A stretch of 64,000 nt of DNA from Serratia surfactantfaciens (lineage in GTDB: Bacteria; Pseudomonadota; Gammaproteobacteria; Enterobacterales; Enterobacteriaceae), in contig NZ_CP016948.1 in assembly GCF_001642805.2 (NCBI RefSeq), positions 1,240,001-1,304,000 on the forward strand, written 5' to 3'. A program made the position numbers and the translations under genes. This document shows, one piece after another, positions 2,779 through 64,000 of the stretch. Positions within the stretch are counted from its first letter, which is position 1. Each line of letters begins with the position of its first letter. Below the pieces are notes generated by a model. That model searched no databases. It was given only the letters and a program-made list of their open reading frames with translations, and was not told the origin of the DNA.

Positions 2779-4146
2779 TTATGGCGCCGACGAACCGCCG
2801 AATTCCAGATAGATTTTCGCCAGATTCTGGTACTGCGCGAAGCGGTTTTCGTCTACCGCCAGTTCCGCCTGACGACGTTGCTCCTGAGCGTTGAGCCAGT
2901 CGGTAATGGTGACGGCGCCCTGTCGGTAGCGCACCTCGTTCAGCCGCTCCGATTTGCGCGCCAGCGCCAATGAAGCCCGCAACTGCGTCTCCTGCGCCAG
3001 CAGCTGCGTACGCAATGACAGTGCGTTGTTCACGTCGCCCATCGCTTTGTACAGCGCCTGCTTGAACGCCAGAACCTGCTGTTCATAGTCGTTGCGGGCG
3101 ATCTTGATATCCACGCCCATTTGCCGCCATTGCAGGAACGGCAGCGTCAGACTGGCGCCGAGGCTGCCCGTCGGGTTGCGCAGGAACTCCAGTAGCGCAC
3201 TGCTGCTGGCACCCAGCGAGCCGGTCAGGCTGAACGCGGGATAGTATTGCAGCCGTTTCTCGTCGACGTTGGCCAGCGCGGCGCGCAACCGCAGCTCTTT
3301 AGCGCTGAGGTCCGGGCGGCGGCTCAAGACGCTGGCGGGAATGCCGGTGTTGATCTGCGGCATCGCCGCCGTCGGCAGACGTGCGGGGGCGATGGTGGCC
3401 TGGCCTGAAGGCGCACCCAGCAGCACCGCCTGTTCATTCAGCGCCTGTTGGCGTTCGTGCTGCAATGCCAGCAGCCGGCTTTCCTGCGTCAGCAAGCTTT
3501 GCTCCGCGTTCACCACGTCCAGCGCCGAGATGCTGCCGGCGCGGTAGCGGGCGTTGGCCAGCCGCAGGGTTTCTTTGGCGTAGGCGATGCTCGCCCGGCT
3601 GACGTCGATCTGCTGATTGAGGAAGCCGATGCGCCAGTAATTGGTGGCCGCGTCGGCCAGCAGCGTCAGGCGCGCCGTCTGCAGATCCTGCTCGGAAGCC
3701 TGGCTGGCCCACTCGGCGGCGTCGCGCTGGCGCGCCAGTTTGCCCCACAGATCGACTTCATAGCTCGTAGAGAGAGAGGCGCTGCTGGTTTTGTTCCAGG
3801 CGGAGGATTCGGACAGCGGGCGATTGATGCCGCTCGTCAACGAAGCGCTGATGCTGGGCGCGGTGCTGATGCCGACGCGTTCCGCTTCGAGCCGCGCGCG
3901 GTAAACGCGCAGCACGGCGAGGGCCAAATCGTTGTTGCTCGCCATCACCTGTTGCAGCCAACGATCAAGCTCGGGATCGTGGAAATCACGCCAGTCGAAC
4001 GGCGTCGGCGCGGCATTGTCTGCCGCGTGCTGCCAGCCCGCCGGGTAATTGACCTGCGGTGCCTGGTAGTCGCTTTTCAGGGCATTGCCGCAGCCGGCGG
4101 TGAGCAGGGCGGCGAGGCTTAGCGCCAGGGGGGATAAAATTTTCAT
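2779..4146 (-). CDS. Outer membrane efflux lipoprotein, NodT/OprM type
   Basis: 455-residue TolC-superfamily channel. It has a lipoprotein signal with lipobox L-T-A-G-C (Cys19), so it is predicted to be acylated and anchored in the outer membrane. Two OEP repeats follow, with the typical coiled-coil hairpins (TARLTLLADAATNYWRIGFL and the SISALDVVNAEQSLL region). GIPASVLSRRPDLSAKE matches the NodT-family signature between repeats. It starts 3 bases after the macB stop in the same operon, so it should form the outer-membrane exit of this MacAB pump. E. coli macAB instead borrows TolC, and the arrangement here resembles Pseudomonas PvdR-PvdT-OmpQ. Substrate unknown. Confidence 0.9.
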   Translation of the reverse strand: MKILSPLALSLAALLTAGCGNALKSDYQAPQVNYPAGWQHAADNAAPTPFDWRDFHDPELDRWLQQVMASNNDLALAVLRVYRARLEAERVGISTAPSISASLTSGINRPLSESSAWNKTSSASLSTSYEVDLWGKLARQRDAAEWASQASEQDLQTARLTLLADAATNYWRIGFLNQQIDVSRASIAYAKETLRLANARYRAGSISALDVVNAEQSLLTQESRLLALQHERQQALNEQAVLLGAPSGQATIAPARLPTAAMPQINTGIPASVLSRRPDLSAKELRLRAALANVDEKRLQYYPAFSLTGSLGASSSALLEFLRNPTGSLGASLTLPFLQWRQMGVDIKIARNDYEQQVLAFKQALYKAMGDVNNALSLRTQLLAQETQLRASLALARKSERLNEVRYRQGAVTITDWLNAQEQRRQAELAVDENRFAQYQNLAKIYLEFGGSSAP

Positions 4147-4149
4147 GGG

Positions 4150-6087
4150 TTACTCGCTGGCCAATGAAACGACCGGATCCATCCTTGCCGCTTTGCGGGC
4201 GGGGAGATAACCGAAGATCATGCCGATTAAGGTTGAACAGAAAAACGCCGTTGCGGCAGCTTGCCAGGAATAGATGGCGGTGAACATGCCGCCCGCCAGC
4301 GAGGTGAACAGCGACCCGGCGGCGAGCGACAGCGCAATGCCCAATGCGCCGCCGATCAGACAGACCAGCACCGCTTCGATCATGAACTGTTGCATGATGT
4401 CGCTGCGCCGCGCGCCGACCGCCATGCGCACGCCGATTTCGTGGGTGCGTTCGGTCACCGAAACCAACATGATGTTCATCACGCCGAGGCTGCCGATCAC
4501 CAGCGAGATCGAGGCTACCATCAGGATCAGCAGGCTGAGCGTCATCGAGGTGCGCTCGATCGACTTACGGAACTGATCGCGGTTGAAGGTCATGAAATCC
4601 TTGACGCCGTGGCGCTGGGTCAGCAACTGCGTGATGGCGCTGACGGCGGCGTCGCTGGCGACGTCATCCTTCAGCCGCACGGTGATGCCGCTGAGCGTGG
4701 TTTTGCCGACCATGCGGTACATCACCGTACTGTAGGGCATCCAAACGCTGATGCGGTTGGGCGCGTAGTTGCGCTCGCTTTTGGCGACGCCGACCACTCG
4801 CGCCGGCACCGAGCCGAGAAACACGATCTGGCCGAGCGGCTCGACGCCGAAGTCGCCGAACAGCGCCTGGCGCGCGTTGTCGTCGATGATCACTTCCTGC
4901 AGCGCGTTGCGATCGTCGCGGAAGGTGACGCCTTGCACCAGCGTGATGCCGTTGACGCGGAAATAGTCGCGCCCGACGCCGGTGATTGACGCGGTGGCGG
5001 ATTTGCTGCGAAAACGGATGCTGTCGGACGCGCTGACTTCCGGGCTGACGCTGTCGACGAAGCTTTGCTGCGCCAGGGCGTCGGCGTCGGCCGGCACCAG
5101 GGTGCGGATGCTGTCGATGGCGTCGTCGAAGAAGTCGCGCCCCGGATAGATGCTCACCACGTTGGTGCCGAGCCCTTTGATATTCTCCAGCGTGCGTTGC
5201 TTGGCGCCTTCGCCCAACGCGACGACCGTGACCACGGCGGCGATGCCGAAGATGATGCCGGTCATGGTCAGCGCGGTGCGCAGGCGGTGGGCATTCATCG
5301 CCTTCAGCGCCATATGCAGCGATTCGCGGGTGCGGTCGATAAGACTTTGCCAGCCGCTTTGCCGGCTGCGGTTCGGCGACGGCAGCGAAGGACCGGGCGC
5401 TGACTGGCGGCCGCTGTCAGCGATGATTTCGCCGTCCCGCAGCTCGATGACGCGCTGTGCATGCTGCGCCACTTTCATGTCGTGGGTGACGATCACCACG
5501 GTGTGGCCGCGCTGATTCAGCTCACTGAGGATCGCCAGCACTTCCTGGCCGGATTGGCTGTCCAGCGCGCCGGTCGGTTCGTCCGCCAAAATGATCTCGC
5601 CGCCGTTGATCAGCGAGCGGGCGATGCTGACGCGCTGCTGCTGGCCGCCGGAAAGTTGACCAGGCTTATGGTCTTCGCGTCCCTCCAGGCCTAACCGCGC
5701 CAGCAGCTGCGCTGCGCGCCGCCGCCGCTGATCGCGCCTGTCATTGGCATAAATCGCCGGGATCTCGACGTTGCCCAGCGCGCTGAGATCGGGCATCAGG
5801 TGATAGCGCTGGAAGATGAAGCCGATATGCTCGCGGCGCAAGCGGGCCAATTCGTCAGGCGACAGATGGGCGGCGTTCTGGCCGCTGATGTAGTAGTCGC
5901 CGCGATCCGGCACGTCGAGACAGCCCATGATGTTCATCAGCGTCGATTTGCCGGAACCGGAGGCGCCGATGATCGCCACCAGTTCGCCGGCGGCGATGGT
6001 CAGATCGATGTCTTTCAACACCGTCAACGCCTGGCCGCCGTTGGTGTAGGTTCGGCTGATGCCTTTTAGCTCGATGATCGCGTTCAC
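4150..6087 (-). CDS. macB: MacB-type ABC export permease/ATPase
   Basis: 645-residue fused ABC protein. The N-terminal ATPase (about 1-230) has Walker [10 protein letters not shown], signature LSGGQQQR and Walker [13 protein letters not shown]. It is followed by one membrane segment near residue 275, a large periplasmic MacB_PCD domain, and three C-terminal membrane helices of the FtsX-like permease domain. It is a mechanotransmission-type transporter that uses ATP to drive periplasmic export through MacA and an outer-membrane channel. Start is a GTG overlapping the macA stop by 4 bases (GTGA), showing translational coupling. In S. marcescens, MacAB has been linked to stress and drug tolerance (established knowledge); the exact substrates are not readable here. 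Confidence 0.95.
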
Positions 6088-8417: not shown

Positions 8418-8445
8418 TTGAGTCCATAATGTTGTTATGGATAAT
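8418..8445 (+). promoter_or_regulatory. Putative promoter of the tRNA-like gene
   Basis: TTGAGT (8418-8423), 16-base spacer, GATAAT (8440-8445), then a GC-rich discriminator GTCGCCCC typical of stringently controlled stable-RNA promoters. Transcription would begin about 14 bases before the tRNA-like fold. Confidence 0.5.
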
Positions 8446-8466
8446 GTCGCCCCGAAGCGAAGGAAC

Positions 8467-8563
8467 GCGCTATTAACTCAGTTGGCAGAGTGATTGGTTT
8501 TATAATGGCTTGTTTTGGCTTGAAAATTGATAGACGCGGGTTCGAGTCCTGCATAGCGCGCCA
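8467..8563 (+). tRNA. tRNA-like gene with abnormal anticodon arm
   Basis: A 97-nt cloverleaf-like element. Acceptor GCGCTAT (8467-8473) pairs perfectly with ATAGCGC (8553-8559), followed by discriminator G and encoded CCA. D arm ACTC-AGTTGGCA-GAGT (8476-8491) is canonical. T arm GCGGG-TTCGAGT-CCTGC (8536-8552) has one G-T pair. The 43 bases in between do not fold into a normal 5-bp/7-nt anticodon arm. The best pairing is ATTGGTTTT (8493-8501) with AAAATTGAT (8523-8531), 9 bp including three G-T pairs, closing a 21-nt loop that contains the direct repeat GGCTTG-TTTT-GGCTTG, then a 4-nt variable region. No anticodon can be assigned. It may be a tRNA pseudogene, a tRNA with a loop insertion, or a tRNA-like regulatory RNA. 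Confidence 0.55.
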
Positions 8564-8590
8564 GCTTTCTTTCCCTTCACCTCACCGCGT

Positions 8591-8664
8591 TTACCGTAAA
8601 GCGCACCCGGGTTGATTTGCACTATCGGCTCCTCGTTGGGATTTTCTGGTGTGCTTTACCGTAA
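8591..8664. repeat. 17-bp inverted repeat with 40-base loop
   Basis: Left arm 8591-8607 (TTACCGTAAAGCGCACC) and right arm 8648-8664 (GGTGTGCTTTACCGTAA) pair at 16 of 17 positions including one G-T; the only mismatch is at the fifth base. It lies between the tRNA-like gene and the 99-aa gene. It has no U run, so it is not a classic terminator. It could be a regulatory hairpin or the ends of a small mobile remnant. Confidence 0.65.
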
Positions 8665-8749
8665 CCGCTGGCTTTCCTTCCTCTTTCTCTTTCGATCCTT
8701 TGCTAAACTGTAATCAGGCAGGCTGTCTGCCCGGCAACAGGAGGTCGAT

Positions 8750-9049
8750 ATGTCTCACTCCGAGCAACTGCAGGAGCTCTTGCAACGCGTCGCCGCCCTC
8801 GAGGCGAGGGAGAAAGCGCTGACCGCCGCATCCAACGCTTATCAGGCGATTATCACCACCATGTTGGGCAATATGGAGAAGGCCGAACGTGACCGGATCA
8901 TTGCCATGATCGATCAGGCCCATGAAATCGCCTACGCCCGCGCCATTCAACGCAGCAACGAACCGCAAAAGCAAAAAATCAAACAGGCCGACGACGTCGC
9001 CCAGCGCATGTTCATGTTTGCGCAAGGCAAAGCCGCTCAGCCGCGCTGA
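8750..9049 (+). CDS. Small coiled-coil protein, IraP/YecF-like pattern
   Basis: 99-residue soluble protein with an excellent AGGAGG ribosome site. N-terminal heptads (ELLQRVAALEAREKALTAA) lead into AIITTMLGNMEKAERDRIIAMIDQA and a basic, Gln/Lys-rich tail. The pattern of a coiled coil followed by 'aiixxML.nM....r.Iaxid.A' resembles the E. coli anti-adaptor IraP and the DUF2594 protein YecF. This is my reading of short similarity, not a verified match. If IraP-like, it would protect sigma-S from RssB-ClpXP. No operon partner; ylaC follows 124 bases later with its own ribosome site. Confidence 0.6.
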   Translation: MSHSEQLQELLQRVAALEAREKALTAASNAYQAIITTMLGNMEKAERDRIIAMIDQAHEIAYARAIQRSNEPQKQKIKQADDVAQRMFMFAQGKAAQPR

Positions 9050-9172
9050 AGCCGAACTATAACAGTTGCCGTCATTAAGTTGGCTAACTGATCTACCCGG
9101 CAAAACTGTACTTGTGTTACTTTTAGCGGTGAGATTTGATGGCAATGCTGTTTCCAGCATAAGGTTGTAACG

Positions 9173-9676
9173 ATGGACGCGATTAAAAGCATCTTGGTTA
9201 AAGAGATTGAACAGATCAATCGGCGCGAGGGGCGCGACGGCAAGCCGCGTTTCAACAGCGAATTCGCCCGCACTCACCGCTATTTGTGCCTTGCCATGTT
9301 CGCCGGTTACTTCGCGGTGATCGCCGTGATGTATCAGGTGCCGTATATGGGGATGTATGCCTTCCTGGGCTTCACCGCCTTCGTGCTGTTCATGTTCGCC
9401 ATGCTGCTGATCGAGATTCGGCCGGTGTATCGTTTCGAGGACATCGGGGTGCTGGATTTGCGGGTTTGCTACAACGGCGAATGGTACTTCACCCGCGCGC
9501 TGTCGCCTTATGCGGTGCAGCAGCTGCTGGATGAGCCGTCCATCGGCGCCGCGCTGAAACAGAAGATGCGAATCATCATCGGCAACAAGGGCGAAATCGA
9601 TTTCTACGACGTGTACGACATGGCCTACGGAAAAAAGCCGCAGGATGAGCCGTCTCAGCTGGCGGCGGCGAACTGA
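9173..9676 (+). CDS. ylaC: YlaC family inner membrane protein
   Basis: 167-residue protein matching E. coli YlaC in layout: a cytoplasmic start with NRREGRDGKPRFNSEF, two membrane helices (about 42-62 and 66-84, YLCLAMFAGYFAVIAVMY and YAFLGFTAFVLFMFAMLL), then the conserved block YRFEDIGVLDLRVCYNGEWY and FYDVYDMAYGKKP in a soluble C-terminal half. The molecular role of the family is not established. It has its own upstream region and is separated from the next small gene by 69 bases. Confidence 0.92.
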   Translation: MDAIKSILVKEIEQINRREGRDGKPRFNSEFARTHRYLCLAMFAGYFAVIAVMYQVPYMGMYAFLGFTAFVLFMFAMLLIEIRPVYRFEDIGVLDLRVCYNGEWYFTRALSPYAVQQLLDEPSIGAALKQKMRIIIGNKGEIDFYDVYDMAYGKKPQDEPSQLAAAN

Positions 9677-9939: not shown

Positions 9940-10053
9940 TCAATCCAGCACGAATCCCCAGATCAGGAACGCCGCCACCAAAATCAGGCAAAGCGCGGAC
10001 ACCGTCACCAGTATTTTCCCCAGAATGTCTTTTTCTTGTTCCCGCTGCGTCAC
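9940..10053 (-). CDS. 37-aa single-pass membrane protein
   Basis: Reading leftward from GTG 10053, 37 codons give MTQREQEKDILGKILVTV... with one strong membrane helix (ILVTVSALCLILVAAFLIWGFV) and a final LD. A GGATAA ribosome site sits 7 bases upstream of the GTG. A TTG 15 bases further upstream (MDNFNVTQ...) is a possible alternative. It follows another tiny membrane-protein gene after 7 bases and is followed by a strong terminator, so the pair looks like a genuine small operon. Function unknown. Confidence 0.5.
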   Translation of the reverse strand: MTQREQEKDILGKILVTVSALCLILVAAFLIWGFVLD

Positions 10054-10060
10054 GTTGAAG

Positions 10061-10168
10061 TTATCCAATTAAAAGTCTATGGACCAAACCGGCGATGCCG
10101 AGATCGAGCGCCGCTACGCCCAGCGCCATGATCATTATCACCGAAAGAAATCGAGTCTTGCCGTTCAC
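10061..10168 (-). CDS. 35-aa single-pass membrane protein
   Basis: Reading leftward from GTG 10168, 35 codons give MNGKTRFLSVIM... with a single hydrophobic helix (LSVIMIMALGVAALDLGIAGLV) and a C-terminal HRLLIG. AGGG is 6-10 bases before the GTG. It lies 7 bases upstream of a second membrane microprotein on the same strand. The two helices have different sequences, so this is not a duplication. Small hydrophobic pairs of this kind are often regulators of larger membrane complexes or stress peptides; no specific role can be read from sequence. Confidence 0.5.
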   Translation of the reverse strand: MNGKTRFLSVIMIMALGVAALDLGIAGLVHRLLIG

Positions 10169-10308
10169 ATCCCTAATCCCTGTCGGCGCCGTTATATCAA
10201 AGGGATATAATTTGGCGGCGCCGTACTGCATACATCGTGATAGAGATTAAGAGCGTTCTTAAGGCCAGAAGTTCCCTCATCTGATAGGCCGGCGCCTGAG
10301 CTGCAGCG

Positions 10309-12030
10309 TTAGTCGGTCACGATCCGCACGCCTATCTTGCTGACTTGATTGCCTTCCATTTCGGCGATGGTCCAGGTCAGACCGTCCCATTCCACCTGGT
10401 CGCCGATGACCGGTTCACCGCCGATCAATTGAATAACAAACTGGCCGAGCGTCTGCTGCTCATCCACGTCGTCTTGCAGATTGAGGCCATAGACCTGCGA
10501 GATATCGCTCAAACGGGCGTCGGACTGCAGGATAAAGTCGCCGAAGAACCGCTCATCGAGCGTCACGGCCGGCGCCTGGCTGAACAGCTTGCCGAGGATC
10601 GGCAGATCGTGCTCATGGCCGATAACGCACAGAATATCGTTCTCTCGCAGCCGGGTGCTGCCGCTCGGGTGCAGCAGTTCTTTGCCGCGGAACAGGGCGG
10701 CGATGCGGGTGTTGGGCGGCATTTTCAGCTCGCGCAGCGCCGCGCCGACGCACCAGTTTTCCGCCGAAAGTTGATAGACGAACTGCTCCCACTGGTTTTC
10801 CGGGTGCACGTCCAGCCCGACGCGGGAGATCGGCGTCAGCGCCGGCGGCACGATCACCTTGGCTTTTTTGGCGGCGAAAGACAGCGTGGTGCCCTGCAGC
10901 AGCAGGGAGACCAGCACCACGAAGAACGCCACGTTGAAGAACAGCTGGGCGTTGGGCAAGCCGGCCATCATCGGGAACACCGCCAGGATCACCGGCACCG
11001 CGCCGCGCAGGCCAACCCAGGAGATAAAGCCGCGCTCGCGCAGGGTAAAGCTGCGAAACGGCAGCAGGCCGATAAACACCGACAGCGGGCGGGCGAACAG
11101 GATCATCCACAGCGACAGCAGCAGGGCAGGGATGGCGATCGGCAGCAGCTCGTGTGGATTAAGCAGCAGGCCGAGCACCAGGAACATGCCGATCTGGCTG
11201 AGCCACGCCAGGCCATCGAAGGTTTGCACGATGCCGTGACGGTTGCGGATCGGCCGGTTGCCCAGCAGCAGGCCGCACAGGTACACCGCCAGAATGCCGC
11301 TGCCGTCCAGCGCGGTGGTCAGCGCGAAAATGAGAATGCCGCCGCTCACCGCCAGCAACGGATAGAGGCCGTCGGCCAGCTTGATGTGGTTGATCAGCGT
11401 CAGCAGCAGCCAGCCGCCGCCCAAACCGAAGACGATGCCCATGCCGAACTGCTGCATCAGATGCAGCGGGAAGGTCCAGCTCAGCGCGGTTTCCCCGGCG
11501 GCGATCATCGCAATCAACGTGATGGTGAGAAATACCGCCATCGGATCGTTGCTGCCGGATTCGATCTCCAGCGTGGCGCTAACGCGTTCGTTCAAGCCTT
11601 TGCCGCCGAGGAGCGAGAAGACTGCAGCGGCGTCGGTGGAACCGATGATGGCGCCGATCAGCAACCCCTGCAGCAGATCGAGATTGAACAGCCAGGCGGC
11701 GGCCATGCCGGTCAGGCCGGCGGTGATCACCACGCCAATGGTGGCGAGAGAGAGCGCCGGCCACAGGGCGACGCGGAAAGAGCTGACCCGGGTGCGCATG
11801 CCGCCGTCGAGCAGGATCACCGCCAACGCGAGGTTACTGACCAGATAAGCGACCGGGTAATTGCTGAAGACGATACCGCCTGGCCCGTCGACGCCGGCCA
11901 GCATGCCGATCGCCAGGAAGATCACCAGGATCGGAATGCCGAGCCGGGAAGAAAATGAGCTGAGCAGAATGCTTGCCCCCACCAGCACGGCACCGATGAC
12001 GAACAAACTGTTAATGGTGCTGGCATCCAA
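10309..12030 (-). CDS. cvrA: K+/H+ antiporter CvrA (NhaP2 type)
   Basis: 573-residue CPA1 antiporter involved in potassium export, cell-volume and osmotic control. About 12-13 membrane helices span residues 1-390, with family motifs [15 protein letters not shown] and [22 protein letters not shown] (the DAAAV ion-site region). They are followed by a TrkA-C/RCK-C domain (about 400-485, [24 protein letters not shown]) and a CorC-like C-terminal domain. E. coli CvrA is 578 aa. A TTG start at 12030 is chosen because it has AGGAG 9 bases upstream and gives [10 protein letters not shown], like the E. coli start; the longer frame adds a proline-rich tail with no family support. Confidence 0.93.
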
Positions 12031-12260
12031 AATATCGCTCTCCTGAGGCTGGGGGATAGGGGGCACTGCGCTGGTGTCGATGATAACGTGTTTAGTGGGT
12101 AAAACGCCAAGGCTGATTGCGAAAACAACCGATCAATTATTGCCCTTTGGTGCGATTAACCGAAGAAAGTGAGGGGAAGAGGGAGAATGCTGCCTTTTAT
12201 CCAACATTATCAGTCTGCTGTATTTCTGCTTTGGCAACAATGCCCGATCGTGGCTGAGGG

Positions 12261-12298
12261 AAAAACCATTAAGCCCGCGCAGGCAGGCTTAATGGTTT
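12261..12298 (-). terminator. Terminator of the 74-aa gene
   Basis: Perfect 13-bp stem AAACCATTAAGCC (12263-12275) / GGCTTAATGGTTT (12286-12298) with a 10-base loop. The AAAAA at 12261-12265 becomes a U run on the leftward transcript. It lies 16 bases after the stop codon at 12314. Confidence 0.8.
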
Positions 12299-12313
12299 GC
12301 AGGCGCGGCAGGG

Positions 12314-12538
12314 TTAATGGTCGAGCGATTCCAGCGCCCGCTTGATTAGCTCGGTCGCCAGCTTGCTTTCCGTTTCGGAAATGCCGTCGAGATTGAAGTT
12401 GGCGAGTTCAGTTACCAAAACGCTGCGTTCTTTGCCGCTGATCGAAGCGTCCAGCGCCGACAGCAGCCGGCCGAGGATCTTCAGCAAGGTGGCGTTTTCC
12501 GCTACGGCTTCCTCAGCCGGTGGGGTTTTATCGGTCAT
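12314..12538 (-). CDS. Small hypothetical protein
   Basis: 74-residue acidic soluble protein starting MTDKTPPAEEAVAENATLL, mostly helical (LLKILGRLLSALDASISGKERSVLVTELANF and ESKLATELIKRALESL). No signal, membrane segment or known motif. An AGAGAGGATTTT ribosome site precedes the ATG and a perfect hairpin terminator follows, so it is a well-bounded monocistronic gene. Function unknown. Confidence 0.65.
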   Translation of the reverse strand: MTDKTPPAEEAVAENATLLKILGRLLSALDASISGKERSVLVTELANFNLDGISETESKLATELIKRALESLDH

Positions 12539-12808
12539 TCAAAATCCTCTCTGTCGTGACGGAAGGGAGAAACAGCTAGCGCCATCGAATATATCAAGCG
12601 GTCGCGCAGCCCCTCGGGGGTGTTGAGCCCAATCGCTACCGTAAGGCAGGGATCCGGATTTCTACTTATGCATTGCAGTTATAACGCCTAGGTTATCTAT
12701 GCAGCCGTATCACTTTGCCTTAACGGTCGACGCCAGGCTGAGCAATGTGTGCTCTGCATGCAAACCACCAGTATAGGCTTTTTACGCGGCGTAAATATGA
12801 CAGGAAAT
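12539..12808. other. Gene-free stretch
   Basis: About 270 bases between the 74-aa gene and the opgC terminator. Short open frames on the plus strand here have poor composition and no ribosome sites. I see no RNA fold, repeat or clear operator. Confidence 0.5.
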
Positions 12809-12834
12809 CCCTGCAAACGATCGGGTTTACAGGG
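12809..12834 (-). terminator. opgC terminator-like hairpin
   Basis: CCCTG-C-AAAC ... GTTT-A-CAGGG stem (one internal mismatch) just beyond the opgC stop on the leftward strand, followed on that strand by ATTTCC. The U run is weak, so termination strength is uncertain. Confidence 0.5.
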
Positions 12835-12842
12835 AGGGAAGG

Positions 12843-13973
12843 CTATTGCGGCTTGCCGGAGAACAGGAAACGCAGCACCGGAATACGCTTATGCAGTTCA
12901 TATAAAGCGAAGGCCAGCGAGAACACAAACAGCAGGCCCAGCAAGAATCCCAACAGATTGTTGCCGATATAAGGCGTCACGAAAGCGCCATATATCAGCG
13001 TCAGAGGATGGTGCACCAGATATATAAACAGCGAGGCGTTGACCAGATAGGTGATGCGCGGCGAGTGATAATTCAGCAGGTTATGCCCGAAAGAGAACAC
13101 CACATTGGTCATCAGAATCCCCATTAGGGTTTTGATCACCACTTCCAGTTCGAACATATAGCTGCTGTGCGCCAGCAGTTTCTGGTTCAGCATATACGCG
13201 ATAAACAGCAGCAGCGAACCGAGCAGCGCCAGCGGCGAACGGCGCAGGAAAATCTCCTTAAGCCACACGTACTTAAACGCATAGGCGCCGAGGATGAAGA
13301 ACGGCAGGTAGAACATCGTCTCCATCACCACGAAATTGAACAGGCCGTTGGATAATAGCTGCGGCGCGAAAATCAAAATAATACGGTGCGCGGCCGAATA
13401 GCATACCGCATAAATAAAGAAATACAGTGAGATGTTTCCTAATCCCCGCATTCTATTTATTAAGGCTGGGATATGCTCACGGGTTTGACGCTTGATTTTA
13501 CGGAACAGATAAAAACAGGCGCAGGTTAACAGTGATAACGTCAATAAGAACCACAGATGAGAAACCAATTCCCAAACTGTTACATTTATTTTCTGATAGA
13601 GAGAAAACGTATCCCAGCCATTTAATTTATCGGTGAAATATTTCAGCATAAAGAACTGCGGCACCGTTATTAGCGGGATGGAACTCAGCAGCGGGATCGC
13701 CACCCGTTCCAGCCTGACCTTCAGCCACTGATGTCGCTCGTAGCGTTCGTAAAGCATGTAGGAGAAGTAGCCGGATATCACGAAGAACACCTGCATGCGG
13801 AAGGCGTGGATGAAGTCGTTCAGCACCGTGAGCGAGAAGGAGGGCGACGCGCTGTTCACCGCCCAGGCATGGCTGGAATAAATCAGGGAGAGGTGAAACG
13901 GAATGCCGAGCAACATCAAATAGGCTCGGATCGAATCGAGGAAAAACTCGCGCTGTTTGCTGCCTTTAGTCAT
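12843..13973 (-). CDS. opgC: Glucans biosynthesis protein C (succinyl transfer)
   Basis: 376-residue acyltransferase-3 family membrane protein with about 10 helices, needed for succinyl decoration of osmoregulated periplasmic glucans. It matches E. coli OpgC/MdoC (385 aa) from REFFLDSIRAYLMLLGIPFHLSLIYSSH at the N-terminus through FRMQVFFVISGYFSYML to LLFVFSLAFALYELHKRIPVLRFLFSGKP at the end. The conserved His and Arg of the family lie in the first helix region. It is divergent from opgGH, the same arrangement as in E. coli, so the three products act on the same glucan. Confidence 0.95.
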   Translation of the reverse strand: MTKGSKQREFFLDSIRAYLMLLGIPFHLSLIYSSHAWAVNSASPSFSLTVLNDFIHAFRMQVFFVISGYFSYMLYERYERHQWLKVRLERVAIPLLSSIPLITVPQFFMLKYFTDKLNGWDTFSLYQKINVTVWELVSHLWFLLTLSLLTCACFYLFRKIKRQTREHIPALINRMRGLGNISLYFFIYAVCYSAAHRIILIFAPQLLSNGLFNFVVMETMFYLPFFILGAYAFKYVWLKEIFLRRSPLALLGSLLLFIAYMLNQKLLAHSSYMFELEVVIKTLMGILMTNVVFSFGHNLLNYHSPRITYLVNASLFIYLVHHPLTLIYGAFVTPYIGNNLLGFLLGLLFVFSLAFALYELHKRIPVLRFLFSGKPQ

Positions 13974-58526: not shown

Positions 58527-58641
58527 AGTTTTTAATTGATTTATAAGTGTTTTTTATTTTACATATCCACATTTAGACCGAGAGATAAGCGATGCTGTGC
58601 AACCGCCCACTTCTGCGGGCAGTCTAATTAGCCAAAGATCA

Positions 58642-59751
58642 ATGAGGTTTGTCCGCTGCTTTTGGGGGCGACTGGACAGGACACACTTCTTAGATATCAA
58701 CTCCAACACCGCCCAGGGGCGACCGGGCAACCTGTATCTGGATGAGTATTTTTGGATACCTGGCTTTGAGATGCGCCAGGCTGCATCGGGCATGGCGTCG
58801 CAAACGCGCTACCGTTCAACGTACTTTTCCACACCGTCCAGCATGACCCATGAAGCCTATTCATTCTGGAATGGCACGCTGTTTAACAAGGGCAAATCGA
58901 AGAACAGACGCCGGGAAATTGACGTTAGCTATAAACGCCTGGCCAGCGGCCTGCTCTGTGAAGATAAGCAGTTTCGCCAGATTGTCACCATTGAGGATGC
59001 GTTACGCGGTGGCTGTGATCTGTTTGATCTGGATGAATTGCGCGAGGAAAACAGCGATGAAGACTTTGAAAACCTATTCATGTGTAACTTCATTGACGAT
59101 ACTGCGTCGGTGTTCCCGATGGGGGAAATGCAGCGTTACATGGTCGACAGTTGGGAGCATTGGACTGACGTTAAACCCTTCGCATTGCGCCCGGTGGCGG
59201 CGCGGGAAGTCTGGATCGGTTATGACCCGGCCAGTTCTGAAAATGGTGATAGCGCAGGTTGTGCGGTTATCCTGCCGCCGCTGATTGCTGGCGGCAAGTT
59301 CCGCGTGCTGGAGCGCCATCAATGGCGCGGCATGGATTTTTCCGCCCAGGCCAAAAATATCAAGGCGTTGACAGAGCGCTACAACGTGACCTATATCGGC
59401 ATCGATAACACCGGCTTCGGCCGTGCGGTGTCGCAACTGGTGCGCCAGTTCTTCCCGGCGGTTAACGCCATCAACTACAGCCTTGAAATGAAAACCGACC
59501 TGGTGCTGAAAGCCCGCGATGTGATCCGCTCTGGCCGCCTGGAGTTCGACGCCGGCGCGCTGGATATCGCCCAGGCGTTTATGTCCACCCGCAAACAGAT
59601 GACCGCAACGGGCCGGCGGGCAACCTATGTCACCAGCCGCGCCGAAGGCGTCAGCCACGGCGATGTGGCCTGGGCGGTCATGCATGCCTTATTCAATGAA
59701 CCGCTTGAAGGGGCAACCGGTAGCAATACAGGTTTTATGGAGATTTTTTAA
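58642..59751 (+). pseudogene. Truncated P2 gpP terminase ATPase/nuclease subunit
   Basis: About 370 codons, while P2-type gpP is about 590. Homology begins around 58686 with FLDINSNTAQ and GNLYLDEYFWIPGFEMRQAASGMA (Walker B region LYLDE retained). It continues through STPSSMTHEAYSFWNGTLFNKG, LFMCNFIDDTASVFPMGEMQ and the nuclease half WIGYDPASSENGDSAGCAVI, YIGIDNTGFGRAVSQLVRQFFP and SHGDVAWAVMHALFNEPLEG. The first ~200 residues, including the Walker A ATPase site, are gone and no ribosome site precedes the in-frame ATG at 58642. DNA packaging function is therefore lost. The stop abuts the portal gene ATG. Confidence 0.9.
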
Positions 59752-60789
59752 ATGAGTAAACGCAACCGGTACCGCAAAAATACCCAGCCGATCACGCAGA
59801 AACAAAGCGGCGCACAGCATGTTGAGGCCTTCACCTTCGGCGACCCGATCCCGATGCTGGATCGGCGTGAAATCCTGGATTATCTGGAGTGCAGCATTGT
59901 TGAACGTTGGTATGAGCCGCCGATCTCTTTCAGTGGCCTGGCGAAGACGTTTCGCGCAGCAGTGCATCACAGTTCACCGATCACCATGAAGCGCAATATT
60001 TTGGTGAGCATGTTCAAGCCTCATCGGCTACTGTCAAAGCAGGATTTTAGCCGCTATGCGCAGGATTTTATGGTGTTCGGCAACAGCTTTATTGAGGGGC
60101 GCTATAACCGGTTGGGCGGTTTGATGAAGCTGGCCCCCAGCCTGGCGAAATACACACGCCGTGGTGTTGATACTGATTCTTACTGGTTCGTGCAATCGTG
60201 GATGGAACCGCACCAATTCGAGGGGGGCTCTATTTTTCACCTGATGGATCCTGACATTAACCAGGAGATTTACGGTGTTCCCGAATACCTTTCCTCGCTT
60301 AACTCCATCTGGCTTAACGAGGCTGCGACGCTGTTTCGCCGGAAATACTACCTTAACGGCAGTCATGCCGGATTTATCCTGTACATGAACGATGCGGCGC
60401 ATAAGCAGGAGGATATTGATAACCTGCGTAAAGCGCTGAAAGAGTCAAAAGGGCCGGGTAACTTCCGTAACCTGTTTATGTATGCGCCTGGTGGTAAGCC
60501 AGACGGGTTACAACTGATCCCTCTGGCAGAAGTCGCGGCAAAAGACGAGTTTTTGAACATCAAAAACGTGACGCGTGATGATCAGCTTGCGGCCCAGCGC
60601 ACGCCACCGCAACTGATGGGGATTTTGCCAAACAACACCGGCGGTTTTGGTGATGTTGAGAAGGCCGCGCGGGTATTTGCGATTAACGAGCTGGCACCGT
60701 TGCAGGAACGGCTATGTGAGCTTAACGAGTGGGCAGGGGAAGAGGTGATCAGCTTCAAGCCTTATGAACTGCTGAAACAGGACTCATAA
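59752..60789 (+). CDS. P2-like phage portal protein (gpQ)
   Basis: 345-residue portal vertex protein of the PBSX/P2 family, full length compared with P2 gpQ (344 aa). Landmarks are VEAFTFGDPIPMLDRREILDYLEC, YEPPISFSGLAKTFRAAVHHSSPI, FMVFGNSFIEGRYNRLGG, DPDINQEIYGVPEYLSSLNSIWLNEAATLFRRKYYLNGSHAGFILY and QRTPPQLMGILPNNTGGFGDVEKAA. It follows the terminase remnant with no gap (TAA then ATG). Intact reading frame although the element is defective. Confidence 0.93.
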   Translation: MSKRNRYRKNTQPITQKQSGAQHVEAFTFGDPIPMLDRREILDYLECSIVERWYEPPISFSGLAKTFRAAVHHSSPITMKRNILVSMFKPHRLLSKQDFSRYAQDFMVFGNSFIEGRYNRLGGLMKLAPSLAKYTRRGVDTDSYWFVQSWMEPHQFEGGSIFHLMDPDINQEIYGVPEYLSSLNSIWLNEAATLFRRKYYLNGSHAGFILYMNDAAHKQEDIDNLRKALKESKGPGNFRNLFMYAPGGKPDGLQLIPLAEVAAKDEFLNIKNVTRDDQLAAQRTPPQLMGILPNNTGGFGDVEKAARVFAINELAPLQERLCELNEWAGEEVISFKPYELLKQDS

Positions 60790-60911
60790 GCAATTGGCTT
60801 AGTGGTTGTACTTATTCATACTTAGTCTGAGATTTTTATGGCCTGAGTTAATCCAGTATGACAGTAGATTTTGTGCGTGAAGCGGACATTCGTAAAGGTA
60901 CTTATTGCTCT

Positions 60912-60940
60912 TTGACAGAAAAATAACCTGTTGATATATT
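60912..60940 (+). promoter_or_regulatory. Strong sigma-70 promoter of the Abi_C gene
   Basis: TTGACA (consensus -35, 60912-60917), 17-base spacer, TATATT (60935-60940). The predicted transcript would have a ~135-base AT-rich leader before the TTG start at 61084. The rest of the 294-base gap after gene Q holds no open frame. Confidence 0.75.
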
Positions 60941-61083
60941 GGAAAAGGTTAAATAAACAAGCTGTTGTAAAACATACAGAATGAGTTTAATGTTGAAAGC
61001 ATTAAATTTGCAATCGCGTAAAAATCCTTGTTTAAGTGCGATTTTTACCTAAAAATAAACATTAGGTTTATGGAGATTCTAGT

Positions 61084-61905
61084 TTGAGTCAGAAAATTCC
61101 AAACTCTGTAATAGGTGCGGTTGCGTCAGTTATTGCGGAGCATTATTACAGCCATTCAAAATTGAATACGCTTTTCATGGAGAGTGGAGCCCCTGGTGAC
61201 CCTCCAGATGGCAACTGTGAGACAAAGTGCAGTAATTGGCTTAAACACTGCAACGACGACACACTGGTTAATGCCTTAGAAGTCCTTGGCGCATTGCTTC
61301 AAGAGTATATGGACCAAGAGCCACCTACCTCGTTATTTGGTGGACCGTTACCTTCAAAAATTACGGAAGGTCAAACTAGAATTATCAATGCGTTAGCAAA
61401 AAATCAATTGGTCTATCGAACTAATGGTTATATTGTTCAAGCTGGGTCGACAGCGATATCGAAAACACTTGAAGACTATTTAAAATCCGGTGATTTTTTT
61501 TCTATTGAAAAGGAATTTGAAAGAGCCGTAGAGCATATCAATGGCGATCCACAGGCATCTATTACGGCGGCCTGTGCAATTATTGAGGCTACTTTGAAGT
61601 TTTACATAGAGCGTTTCAGTTTGGTTATGCCGAATAAGCTTAATGTTATGAACTTGTGGGCCACAGTCCACCCTCAACTTAGTTTGAATTCGGATGTCAC
61701 ATTAGCTGCTGATCAGCAAAAAGTATTAAAGGGGCTTTCCTCTATTATTGATGGTGTAGGGGCATTTAGGTCGCACATAGGGTCGGCACATGGCCGCGGT
61801 TCTAACCCGCCGAATATCGTAGTTGCAGAAGCACGGTTGGTCATTAACGCAGCCCACACTATTGTGGTTTTTGTAATGGAGTTAATGCATGCAAAAACTA
61901 ACTAA
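61084..61905 (+). CDS. Abi_C-type abortive infection family protein
   Basis: 273-residue soluble protein. The C-terminal third (from about residue 145, EFERAVEHINGDPQASITAACAIIEATLKFYIERF) has the Abi_C layout. It ends in FRSHIGSAHGRGSNPPNIVVAEARLVINAAHTIV, where R229-x6-H236 fits the R-x4-6-H signature of HEPN ribonuclease folds and the 'hGxAHGrG' block typical of Abi_C. The N-terminal half is unlike anything I recognise. TTG start with GGAG 8 bases upstream. Strongly AT-rich compared with genes P and Q. It has its own promoter and a hairpin after the stop. Such proteins are thought to stop growth of phage-infected cells; the trigger and target here are unknown. Confidence 0.8.
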   Translation: MSQKIPNSVIGAVASVIAEHYYSHSKLNTLFMESGAPGDPPDGNCETKCSNWLKHCNDDTLVNALEVLGALLQEYMDQEPPTSLFGGPLPSKITEGQTRIINALAKNQLVYRTNGYIVQAGSTAISKTLEDYLKSGDFFSIEKEFERAVEHINGDPQASITAACAIIEATLKFYIERFSLVMPNKLNVMNLWATVHPQLSLNSDVTLAADQQKVLKGLSSIIDGVGAFRSHIGSAHGRGSNPPNIVVAEARLVINAAHTIVVFVMELMHAKTN

Positions 61906-61951
61906 GTGAAACATGTACCCATTGTTGCAGGGATGAAAGTCCACTAAATTT

Positions 61952-61983
61952 CAATAGAAATATAGCGTTAGCTATTTCTATTG
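61952..61983 (+). terminator. Hairpin after the Abi_C gene
   Basis: CAATAGAAATA ... TATTTCTATTG perfect 11-bp stem with a 10-base loop, 47 bases past the stop. The following sequence has T-rich patches (ATTTATTGATTTTTTGG), so termination is likely but not canonical. Confidence 0.65.
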
Positions 61984-62210
61984 TGACCGCATTTATTGAT
62001 TTTTTGGCTAAAACGATCGCGAAATTTATCTCCGTTTGTATGAGTTTTTATAAACTGTAAAGATTATACTTTTAACGATTGATGAGTAACTAATTTAAAT
62101 GAAGTAGAGTTGGAAATAATATAGCATAAATAATTATGAAAGTTCTGGGGAGAAAATTACGATAAGTTACCCTCAGCTAAAATTTATCCTTATATCTCAT
62201 GGAGTATGGA
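61984..62210 (+). promoter_or_regulatory. Upstream region of the HExxH gene
   Basis: About 230 AT-rich bases with several possible -10/-35 pairs, for example TTGGAA at 62110 with TTATGA about 18 bases on. None stands out. The hairpin before it and this gap suggest the next gene has its own promoter rather than sharing that of the Abi_C gene. Confidence 0.4.
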
Positions 62211-63854
62211 ATGCAACTCAATTTCGAATTATTGAAAGATGATCAATATAGCGACTATCCGCATGATTACAAAAATTGCTACAATGCAAGAGGGTTATAT
62301 CATTCAATGCAGTTTGTGTTGAGACTGCGACCTGATTTACATAGATTATTAAATGCTACAGAAAATGGAATTCATGCATCTAGTAAATATGATTTTGATA
62401 CGGTTCAAGCATTCTCTACTTATTTACATGAAACAATTCACTGGTGGCAACACATTGGCTCTACATCAGGATTATTGTTAAGCTTGTCGTACCCAGCCCA
62501 AGCTCATATAAACCATGATCTCTTAAAAGAATATATCGATAATACTGGTCTAAAAAAACCCATTGTTCGTTATAACGAAATAAACTCTAAAGAATATCAA
62601 CCTAAAAGCAAAGAATTTTTGACAATAAATCCAATATTGAATAATTTTCATGATATTGAGTTTTTCAAGTGTTTAATTATTCAGCCAAAGTCAGCCACTT
62701 CAATAGTTAACGATAAGCTCTTTGAATCAGTGGGCCATTCATTTCATATAACCTACTCGTCATTTTTATCTGTTTTATCTTCAACCTTTGATAGGGAATT
62801 AAATTTCCTTCCAAGAGGGGATGTTTGGCATCAAGGATTTAAAGTATTGTCAGACAATAATCATATTAATCATAAGTTTGGTGAGCCGTCTTATATTTGC
62901 CCCATCGGGTTAATTGAATTATATGAAGGTCAAGCTAGGTTTTCCCAAATGCAGTATTTATTTTTCTATTCGGGAGAAAGTCTTAGCTGGTCTGATTTTG
63001 AACAGATGAAGATGCTGGATGGAGTTTACTATTCAGCTTTTGATAATTTCTTAAAACTTACTAACTCTGTGAGACCGGATAACTTAGGAAGTCCGTTGGT
63101 TTCTTTGTTTTTACTAATATTGGATATTGCGATAAATCCCGCAGAAGGGTTTCCATTTGATATTAAAAACTATGAAAACTTCATAAATTCCACACACCCG
63201 GGGATTAGATTTATAGATTTGTGTCGTGCAGTTAAAGATAAATACCCTGAATTTAAAGAGTTGATAGTGAGATTCTCATCCTCTGAATATTATCAAGTAT
63301 CCACAGCGCTGTCCGCAGCAATCAATAGCCCATCTCCGTTAGATATAGCTACAGAAATTAATCGTTGGTCGAAAAATCAAAATTCAATCATAAAATTAAT
63401 GGAGGAAGAGGAGGTATTTGATTTTAATGAAGAAAATCAGCCTATTAGATTGATTTTCTCTCAATTCATTAAATATCAACAAGATAAGGTCTTGAATCCT
63501 GCCTATTTCTGTTGGGCTGGGGCTTATAGTGCTGGTAATAGATTGACTGAAGAAAGCAAAAATCTTTTCCTGAAGCATCAGTCTCTATTTGTTGATAAAG
63601 AGGACGGAGACATTTACCCGAGGAAATTTCCTGACAAAGACGAAGTTAAAGTGCAAAAATCTTTCGATCTTTTTTACACATGGGTAGTGAATTATGACCT
63701 GTGTAAACAGTGGATAGTTGCTGAAGGCGCGTTTACTTACGACTTTTTTTGGTTGTCCAGCAAACATTCAATGCTCGATTTGGAAAACTGGGCTCGACAT
63801 AATTTTAAACTCGCATACGGAGTGGATCCGGCTGATTTCGAAGTGATTGATTAA
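62211..63854 (+). CDS. Unknown protein with HExxH metallopeptidase-like motif
   Basis: 547-residue soluble protein, very AT-rich, no signal peptide or membrane segment. Residues 71-83 read YLHETIHWWQHIG, an H-E-x-x-H motif (73-77) in a helix, as in zincin peptidases. A second motif near 232-244, IGLIELYEGQARF, contains E239-G-x-A242, like the third-ligand helix (E-x-x-A/D or EGxA) of gluzincins. The remainder (about 250-547) is helical and rich in aromatic residues, with no known domain. ATG 62211 is preferred to 62199 because GGAG lies 6 bases upstream. Its place beyond the P2 portal gene and next to an Abi_C gene suggests an anti-phage protease. Both the protease and the defence role are inference. 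Confidence 0.7.
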   Translation: MQLNFELLKDDQYSDYPHDYKNCYNARGLYHSMQFVLRLRPDLHRLLNATENGIHASSKYDFDTVQAFSTYLHETIHWWQHIGSTSGLLLSLSYPAQAHINHDLLKEYIDNTGLKKPIVRYNEINSKEYQPKSKEFLTINPILNNFHDIEFFKCLIIQPKSATSIVNDKLFESVGHSFHITYSSFLSVLSSTFDRELNFLPRGDVWHQGFKVLSDNNHINHKFGEPSYICPIGLIELYEGQARFSQMQYLFFYSGESLSWSDFEQMKMLDGVYYSAFDNFLKLTNSVRPDNLGSPLVSLFLLILDIAINPAEGFPFDIKNYENFINSTHPGIRFIDLCRAVKDKYPEFKELIVRFSSSEYYQVSTALSAAINSPSPLDIATEINRWSKNQNSIIKLMEEEEVFDFNEENQPIRLIFSQFIKYQQDKVLNPAYFCWAGAYSAGNRLTEESKNLFLKHQSLFVDKEDGDIYPRKFPDKDEVKVQKSFDLFYTWVVNYDLCKQWIVAEGAFTYDFFWLSSKHSMLDLENWARHNFKLAYGVDPADFEVID

Positions 63855-63883
63855 AAGTTTCCCAAAGAGATTATTTTGGTAGT

Positions 63884-63930
63884 AAAATACTGGTGCCCTC
63901 TGGTTTCCATCGAGTACATCAGTATTTTTT
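63884..63930 (+). terminator. Terminator after the HExxH gene
   Basis: AAAATACTG (63884-63892) and CAGTATTTT (63920-63928) form a 9-bp stem with a 27-base loop, running into T6. It lies 30 bases after the stop codon. Confidence 0.65.
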
Positions 63931-64000
63931 GTTATTCTTAAAATATAATTGGTTTGTGACCACGAAACACTACTAGGTCAGTTCTAATACATTTTAATTT

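Follow-up and report, generated by a model that had tools for sequence, protein, structure and literature searches.

What does a gene for a metallopeptidase-like protein do in the accessory slot of a P2-like prophage? This question was raised by a stretch of 64,000 nucleotides from Serratia surfactantfaciens (assembly GCF_001642805.2, contig NZ_CP016948.1, positions 1,240,001 to 1,304,000), referred to here as the window, in which a gene at 62211..63854 on the forward strand encodes a protein of 547 amino acids (aa) with an HExxH...EGQA signature. The gene was delineated from its open reading frame (ORF), the conservation of its family and an AlphaFold2 (AF2) model. Our results suggest that its product is very probably a gluzincin-type zinc metallopeptidase, that the gene is likely to be anti-phage defence cargo, and that it possibly works in the manner of the phage-exclusion protease Lit.

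The ORF is intact and could also open at 62199 in the same frame, giving 551 aa (62199-63854). The ATG at 62211 has GGAG six bases upstream, a better ribosome site than that of 62199, and we prefer it because several of the closest homologues align from the fifth residue of the 551-aa version onwards, which is the 62211 start. Residue numbers are given below in the 551-aa frame unless stated; subtracting 4 gives the 547-aa numbering. The HExxH codons (H-E-T-I-H; H77, E78 and H81) lie at 62427..62441 and the EGQA codons, with E243 as the putative third zinc ligand, at 62925..62936, both on the forward strand. The GC content of the gene is 0.347, as against 0.520 for the portal gene and 0.585 for window positions 1-56700. 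Nothing matched the protein in Pfam (0 families at E<=1), PHROGs or NCBIfam at the thresholds used, and 0 models of PADLOC 2023 did so at E<=1. Thus an earlier sequence-only reading of the window was borne out in its coordinates, length and start, in its placing of the two motifs (73-77 and 239-242 in the 547-aa numbering), in its remark on AT-richness, and, in these four libraries, in its statement that there is no other recognisable domain.

An HExxH motif by itself is weak evidence, because 790 of 20,000 shuffles of the protein contained one; an HExxH followed 100-220 residues later by E[GN]xA occurred in 19 of 20,000. The main evidence is the conservation across the family. The H, E, H and E-G-Q-A residues were identical in all 55 family sequences longer than 450 aa, the window's own included, after 8 shorter or broken sequences had been removed from 63. 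Poor conservation of HExxH, which had been named beforehand as a ground for abandoning the idea, was looked for and not seen. The distance from H81 to E243 was 154-164 residues in 47/47 aligned family sequences.

The AF2 model was predicted with confidence (predicted local distance difference test, pLDDT, 90.2; predicted template modelling score, pTM, 0.92). It places HExxH on a helix at residues 66-87 and the invariant E243 on a second helix at 238-257, as expected of a gluzincin. The best structural rows were M1 catalytic domains (APN, IRAP, ERAP1/2, PSA and LTA4H), in one consistent range, and they lend indirect support to a putative metal site shared by the two His and the Glu. Because the motifs are invariant and M1 catalytic domains are the best rows, the gluzincin-like class proposed in the earlier reading is supported, and the protein would very probably bind zinc and cleave proteins. 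The family profile found no solved relative among PDB sequences at E<=10, and Foldseek against PDB and BFVD gave nothing at E<=0.001, with the C-terminal half not searched separately; this does not make the fold new.

The usual membrane limit on the 19-residue Kyte-Doolittle scale is 1.6. The most hydrophobic window of the protein, around residues 296-318, peaks at 1.73, and it coincides with a predicted 13-residue helix (299-311) bearing the invariant Asp D309. A buried helix is favoured over a membrane helix because of this short length and of D309. The protein is therefore likely soluble and cytosolic; the earlier claim of solubility stands with the caution that the peak lies slightly above the limit.

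The position of the gene was compared with prophages of the same genus. The left anchor is the P2-type portal gene gpQ at 59752..60789 (+; phrog_68 portal 3e-163), preceded by the terminase large subunit gene gpP at 58597..59751 (+). The latter is N-terminally truncated (its match to Terminase_6N lacks the profile positions before 79), as against a 589-aa version in locus L127. Portal relatives occur in 21 of 30 same-genus genomes, the own genome included; besides the own one, four genomes had gpQ proteins 97-98% identical and one 88%. We read the surroundings of these five (L124-L128, same-genus P2-like prophages or remnants), whose gpP and gpQ share 84-94% DNA identity with the window. The blastn comparison with them showed a gpQ-side cargo bay at 60790..64000 whose right border lies outside the window: the segment common to the window genome and L124-L128 resumes at genome positions 1304060-1304096, which is 60-96 bases past the window end. 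A short gene to the right (97 aa in the window genome, 114 aa in L125, L127 and L128) is also common to all but L126, which stops at its contig end.

The right anchor of the slot was taken to be gpA, because L127 encodes an 840-aa protein that, along its first two thirds to four fifths, shares 58% identity with the A protein of phage 186 and 58.5% with replication protein A of ENT90. The protein in this position has 840 aa in L124, 819 aa in L128 (with one 232-aa gene between) and 442 aa in L125. The prophage of the window is a remnant beside ptsG, as are those of L125 and L126, and gpA itself is missing from it. The gpQ and right segments are thus common to same-genus prophages in which gpA follows, and what lies next to gpQ is variable or empty.

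The gpQ-side bay of the window holds an Abi_C/AbiJ-like abortive-infection gene at 61084..61905 (+; Pfam Abi_C 57.6 bits at a cut-off of 24; PADLOC AbiJ 2.8e-12), which we read as separate cargo, together with the peptidase gene. The same bay holds AbiV HEPN and small genes in L124, a 291-aa gene without match in L125 and L126 (L125 4054-4929) and DndB in L127, and it is empty (about 110 bases) in L128. The other bay contains DUF4238 in the window genome, a SMODS cyclase with a 2TM effector (CBASS) in L124, a SIR2/ThsA-like protein in L125, an OLD-like ATPase in L127 and PD-T7-5 (E 1e-132) in L128. The hotspot of L124 also has a gene of 120 aa at 11781-12143 and one of 158 aa at 12133-12609, the latter without match. 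Past the window end, between the two bays, there is an IS3-type element recognised by eye (L002 about 8427-9670, genome 1304426-1305669); it sits within the conserved segment, near a G-rich, perhaps cos-like stretch, and this segment is unbroken in L128. Further along the island, L002 carries a DUF4238 gene (9991-10929, -) and a PIN_8 gene (11713-12858, -). A Rhizobium plasmid (L064) likewise has an annotated DUF4238 gene, at 4114-5043, close to its peptidase gene.

Passages of Rousset et al. (2022, PMC9122126) establish the gpA-gpQ/cos hotspot, home of old and tin, for E. coli P2-like phages. The window peptidase occupies the same position beyond gpQ, and same-genus relatives carry CBASS, AbiV, OLD-like, SIR2, DndB and PD-T7-5 genes there. 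The claim that the gene is phage-borne accessory cargo beyond gpQ is thus supported by the comparison with L124-L128 and by this hotspot. No such peptidase was found in the passages of that paper examined; its main text has "protease" 0 times and "peptidase" 2 times, the passage shown concerning a Bacillales anchor gene. Because the slot holds known antiviral genes in same-genus relatives, we consider it likely that the peptidase gene is defence cargo, its antiviral effect being deduced from position.

The distribution of the family agrees with mobile cargo. Six exact peptide patterns, run once against a genome collection of 84,980 species, gave at least 57 loci, a lower bound because of this way of searching. 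They fall in Pseudomonadota, Bacteroidota, Balneolota, Acidobacteriota, Planctomycetota, Verrucomicrobiota, Nitrospirota, Fibrobacterota, Thermodesulfobacteriota and, through a Paenibacillus copy that carries a stop codon, Bacillota; many are from metagenome assemblies, in which a contig may be assigned to the wrong organism. IMG/VR contained 13 loci, two of them matching residues 237-468 only, and eight plasmid records carried the family; no copy was found among deposited phages. Two pairs of loci (L066 and L031, L069 and L068) are identical in the peptidase protein. The source genome itself was the only carrier among 392 genomes of its own family and, counting it, there was 1 in 369 of the class sample and 2 in 398 of the phylum sample; the second of these (G843) covers 36 residues and is treated as a chance match. 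By DNA similarity, which distant copies could escape, 1 of 5,426 E. coli genomes had the gene. This copy (strain K56-43-un, L060 15002-16645) lies in an island between ygbA and mutS with integrase and relaxase genes and no annotated phage structural gene.

Its closest homologues come from Vibrio (74%), Aeromonas (69%) and E. coli (69%), so the gene moves between families. A housekeeping enzyme was rejected, the gene being rare and patchy, and homologues confined to housekeeping contexts, the other refutation set out beforehand, were looked for and not found. The family is rare and mobile, is present in about ten phyla and has no fixed partner. No description of it was found among the matches listed in the open-access literature searched (largely titles and the beginnings of abstracts, with supplements and most subscription papers outside), nor any paper mentioning the accession numbers of three homologues. 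It appears to be undescribed in the libraries and open literature searched, and to this extent the novelty claimed for it was upheld.

A second slot was found in P1-like Pantoea phage-plasmids, whose capsid gene is 45% and 66% identical to gp23 of P1 and D6, respectively. The site lies after a small gene resembling, by eye, a lysis gene and before a small gene followed by gp23 (L061 7822-9779, with equivalents in L062, L068-L071, L074, L075 and L080-L083). It holds the peptidase, as the only cargo, in L061, L062, L068-L071, L074 and L075, which are Pantoea phage-plasmids and IMG/VR contigs with the same genes. It is empty in L081, whose capsid is 97% identical to that of L061; it holds a 278-aa HNH_5-like gene (below cut-off) in L080 and a 196-aa gene in L082 and L083. 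The more distant L084-L088 have other arrangements, with no otherwise-unnamed peptidase-sized gene before gp23. In one of them, phage D6, a glutaminyl-tRNA synthetase gene is annotated near the corresponding capsid region (L087 1-120).

In seven of eight comparisons, the points at which DNA similarity to L061 breaks off and resumes almost coincide; L071 aligns throughout. Leaving out L069, whose peptidase is that of L068, the slot peptidases are mutually 36-69% identical, as against 89-98% for the capsids and 89-100% for the sheaths. Separate acquisitions from outside are unsupported: all alleles form one clade (100/100), with L075 on a long branch, and for this reason we favour exchange, or else rapid divergence, inside the phage pool. 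In these phage-plasmids the peptidase thus behaves as a cassette: some retain it, some have lost it, and its alleles have been swapped or have diverged, an arms-race-like pattern.

How might such a protein protect a lysogen? The metal-site motifs, the defence-slot position, the mobility and the diverged alleles are observed, and the predicted fold is confident. From these we infer, by analogy with Lit, a cytosolic gluzincin-type protease that is probably latent in the lysogen, would be activated by something that the infecting phage produces, and would then cleave one essential host protein or phage protein, so that the infection is aborted. Latency and triggering are proposed because a protease active in a lysogen must be specific or silent. 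We regard this mode, with its latency, trigger and target, as a serious possibility that falls a little short of even chances.

On the other hand, the protein may exclude superinfecting phages directly, as a constitutively active protease that cuts an incoming phage protein (e.g. capsid, tail or early) and lets the host survive. The positional evidence is the same, and alleles as divergent as those of the phage-plasmid slot would fit the matching of changing phage targets. However, nothing sets this apart from cleavage of a host protein, and a constantly active protease would need high specificity; we consider it unlikely.

The neighbourhoods of the other family members bear on the remaining explanations. 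After exclusion of 16 loci (duplicates, phage-slot loci and fragments), 107 of 221 selected neighbours were scanned; in unannotated loci the genes come from a crude script that takes the longest ORFs, and some of the small ones are probably spurious. At E<=1e-5 the 107 neighbours matched 278 PADLOC models, compared with 6 for 46 chromosomal window genes, a tally that is indicative only because the models overlap and a few proteins match many. Pfam gave integrases in 5/107, AbiJ_NTD5 in 2/107 and helix-turn-helix HTH_3 domains in 3/107.

HExxH is also present in non-peptidases, and together with the HTH_3 domains this would allow a metal enzyme without protease function, or a peptidase for maintenance or regulation of the element (ImmA/IrrE-like, repressor-cutting). 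The M1 catalytic domains at the head of the structural rows and the retained EGxA glutamate helix weigh on the other side, as does the absence of a repressor-like gene, judged by eye, among the recurrent neighbour clusters. Such a role is, in our view, distinctly improbable.

The upstream gene is codirectional with the peptidase gene in 63/76 of all loci and in 52/65 without slot and duplicate loci; for the downstream gene the counts are 33/68 and 30/57. Besides the Abi gene of the window, 20 upstream genes were scanned singly (8 with Pfam and PADLOC, 2 with PADLOC alone, 10 with Pfam alone). Those of a defence, toxin, nuclease or DNA-modification type were HipA (L007), T5orf172 (L014), HsdR (L020), AbiJ_NTD5 (L030), putAbiC (L033), a DUF1156 methyltransferase (L055) and, below cut-off, HEPN (L015). 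DUF or AAA families were found in L003 (DUF2971), L064 and L065, and there was no match in L005, L011, L017, L023, L024, L027, L029, L039, L041 and L067.

Full-length GajB matches (E 1e-138 to 1e-146) adjoin the peptidase gene on its upstream side in L031 and L053, and in L037 one gene separates the two; only strong ones were counted, because GajB matches also occur in 12/14 control genomes. The Gabija-type gene pairs lie at L031 521-3230, L053 5215-7918 and L037 4792-7977. Besides the phage-slot genes, clusters recurring in three or four loci include these (L031 = L066, L053 and L037), integrases (directly upstream in L046, L072 and L073), a gene of about 500 aa (L020, L040, L045 and L076) and a 190-aa "GWGSL" protein. 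In L037 the latter lies between the Gabija-type genes and the peptidase, whereas in L027 and L058 it is the immediate upstream neighbour; its L027 copy had no Pfam match, and the L029 upstream gene resembles it by eye only, phmmer giving no match.

These data could be taken to indicate a two-gene system with the Abi_C/AbiJ-like gene, in which the protease is sensor, activator or antitoxin. The two genes of the window are codirectional and 293-305 nucleotides apart in one bay, Abi-type genes are directly upstream in L030 (AbiJ_NTD5), L048 (the homologue of L030, phmmer 4e-86) and L033 (putAbiC), with the weaker HEPN of L015, and the upstream gene is the one more often codirectional. But the closest homologues have differing upstream genes (DUF2971 in L003, no match in L005, an integrase in L046, a host gene on the opposite strand in L060), and the phage-plasmid slots hold the peptidase alone. 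Moreover, the window's Abi gene has a relative (66% DNA identity) on an E. coli plasmid, where no peptidase gene is annotated within 4 kb; Abi_C genes were above cut-off in 12 of 150 genomes, the own included. A fixed partner gene was rejected, as the neighbours vary between loci, and the peptidase is read as a single-gene unit because no partner is constant; a two-gene system of this kind seems improbable. A counter-defence or virion-delivered factor that cuts host defence proteins at entry is very improbable: the peptidase does stand just before gp23 and tail genes in the P1-like phage-plasmids, and zincin domains are common in "polyvalent" proteins of phages and plasmids, for which delivery at invasion has been proposed (passages of PMC5512222), but it is a stand-alone protein rather than a domain of such proteins, it also occurs beside integrases, HsdR and Gabija genes, and the E. 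coli island copy has no annotated phage structural gene with it.

Returning to a latent, phage-triggered protease, the wider picture would be a large undescribed family of such gluzincins in about ten phyla, swapped as allelic cassettes by temperate phages and phage-plasmids, each allele with a different infection signal or target. We put this forward tentatively. Most of the known anti-phage effectors act on nucleic acids, nucleotides or membranes; few stand-alone proteases are known to abort infection, and Lit is the classic example. If true, diversified protease-based immunity would extend well beyond the Lit case, in a family with clear catalytic motifs and no annotation in four libraries. 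The phage-plasmids offer a natural experiment, as their capsids are at least 89% identical, yet the same site is without a copy, with another gene, or with very different copies; comparing alleles in one backbone could reveal trigger and target. The slot map also assembles the P2-type defence cargo of one genus, some of it genes without match. Elsewhere in the window, ARAGORN called a 97-base tRNA-Tyr at 8467-8563 (+); its anticodon, ATA, is unusual, and the call is probably false.

Among known proteins, M1 aminopeptidases supply the top structural rows, and the window protein may have their gluzincin catalytic core. Their motif is HExxH with an E-G-x-A-x-[YF] glutamate helix, and the window protein likewise has HExxH and an EGxA glutamate helix. 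The spacing differs: 18 residues separate HExxH from the glutamate in M1, as against 153-163 in 47/47 sequences of the window family, and the window protein matches no M1 profile (0 Pfam families at E<=1). Passages of PMC9519451 describe ImmA/IrrE and Xre-fused peptidases in experimentally selected anti-phage systems. The window protein resembles these as a peptidase domain in an anti-phage setting, by prediction, and differs in having no Pfam match and no fixed HTH or toxin partner. Lit is an HExxH zinc enzyme. It has 297 aa compared with the 547 aa of the window protein, and homology between Lit (peptidase U49) and the window protein was rejected, as hhalign gave a probability of 0.6% and there was no Pfam match. 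Because the profile comparison shows no relation, our claim is that the window protein would work like Lit, not that it is Lit. The likeness is one of mode: passages of PMC6379469 and PMC3014915 report that Lit, the cell death peptidase encoded by cryptic prophage e14 of E. coli, cleaves EF-Tu once the Gol peptide of T4 has been made and thereby excludes the phage (Gol-Lit exclusion), and the window protein, by its predicted proteolytic activity, would likewise be a prophage-borne protease that excludes phage.
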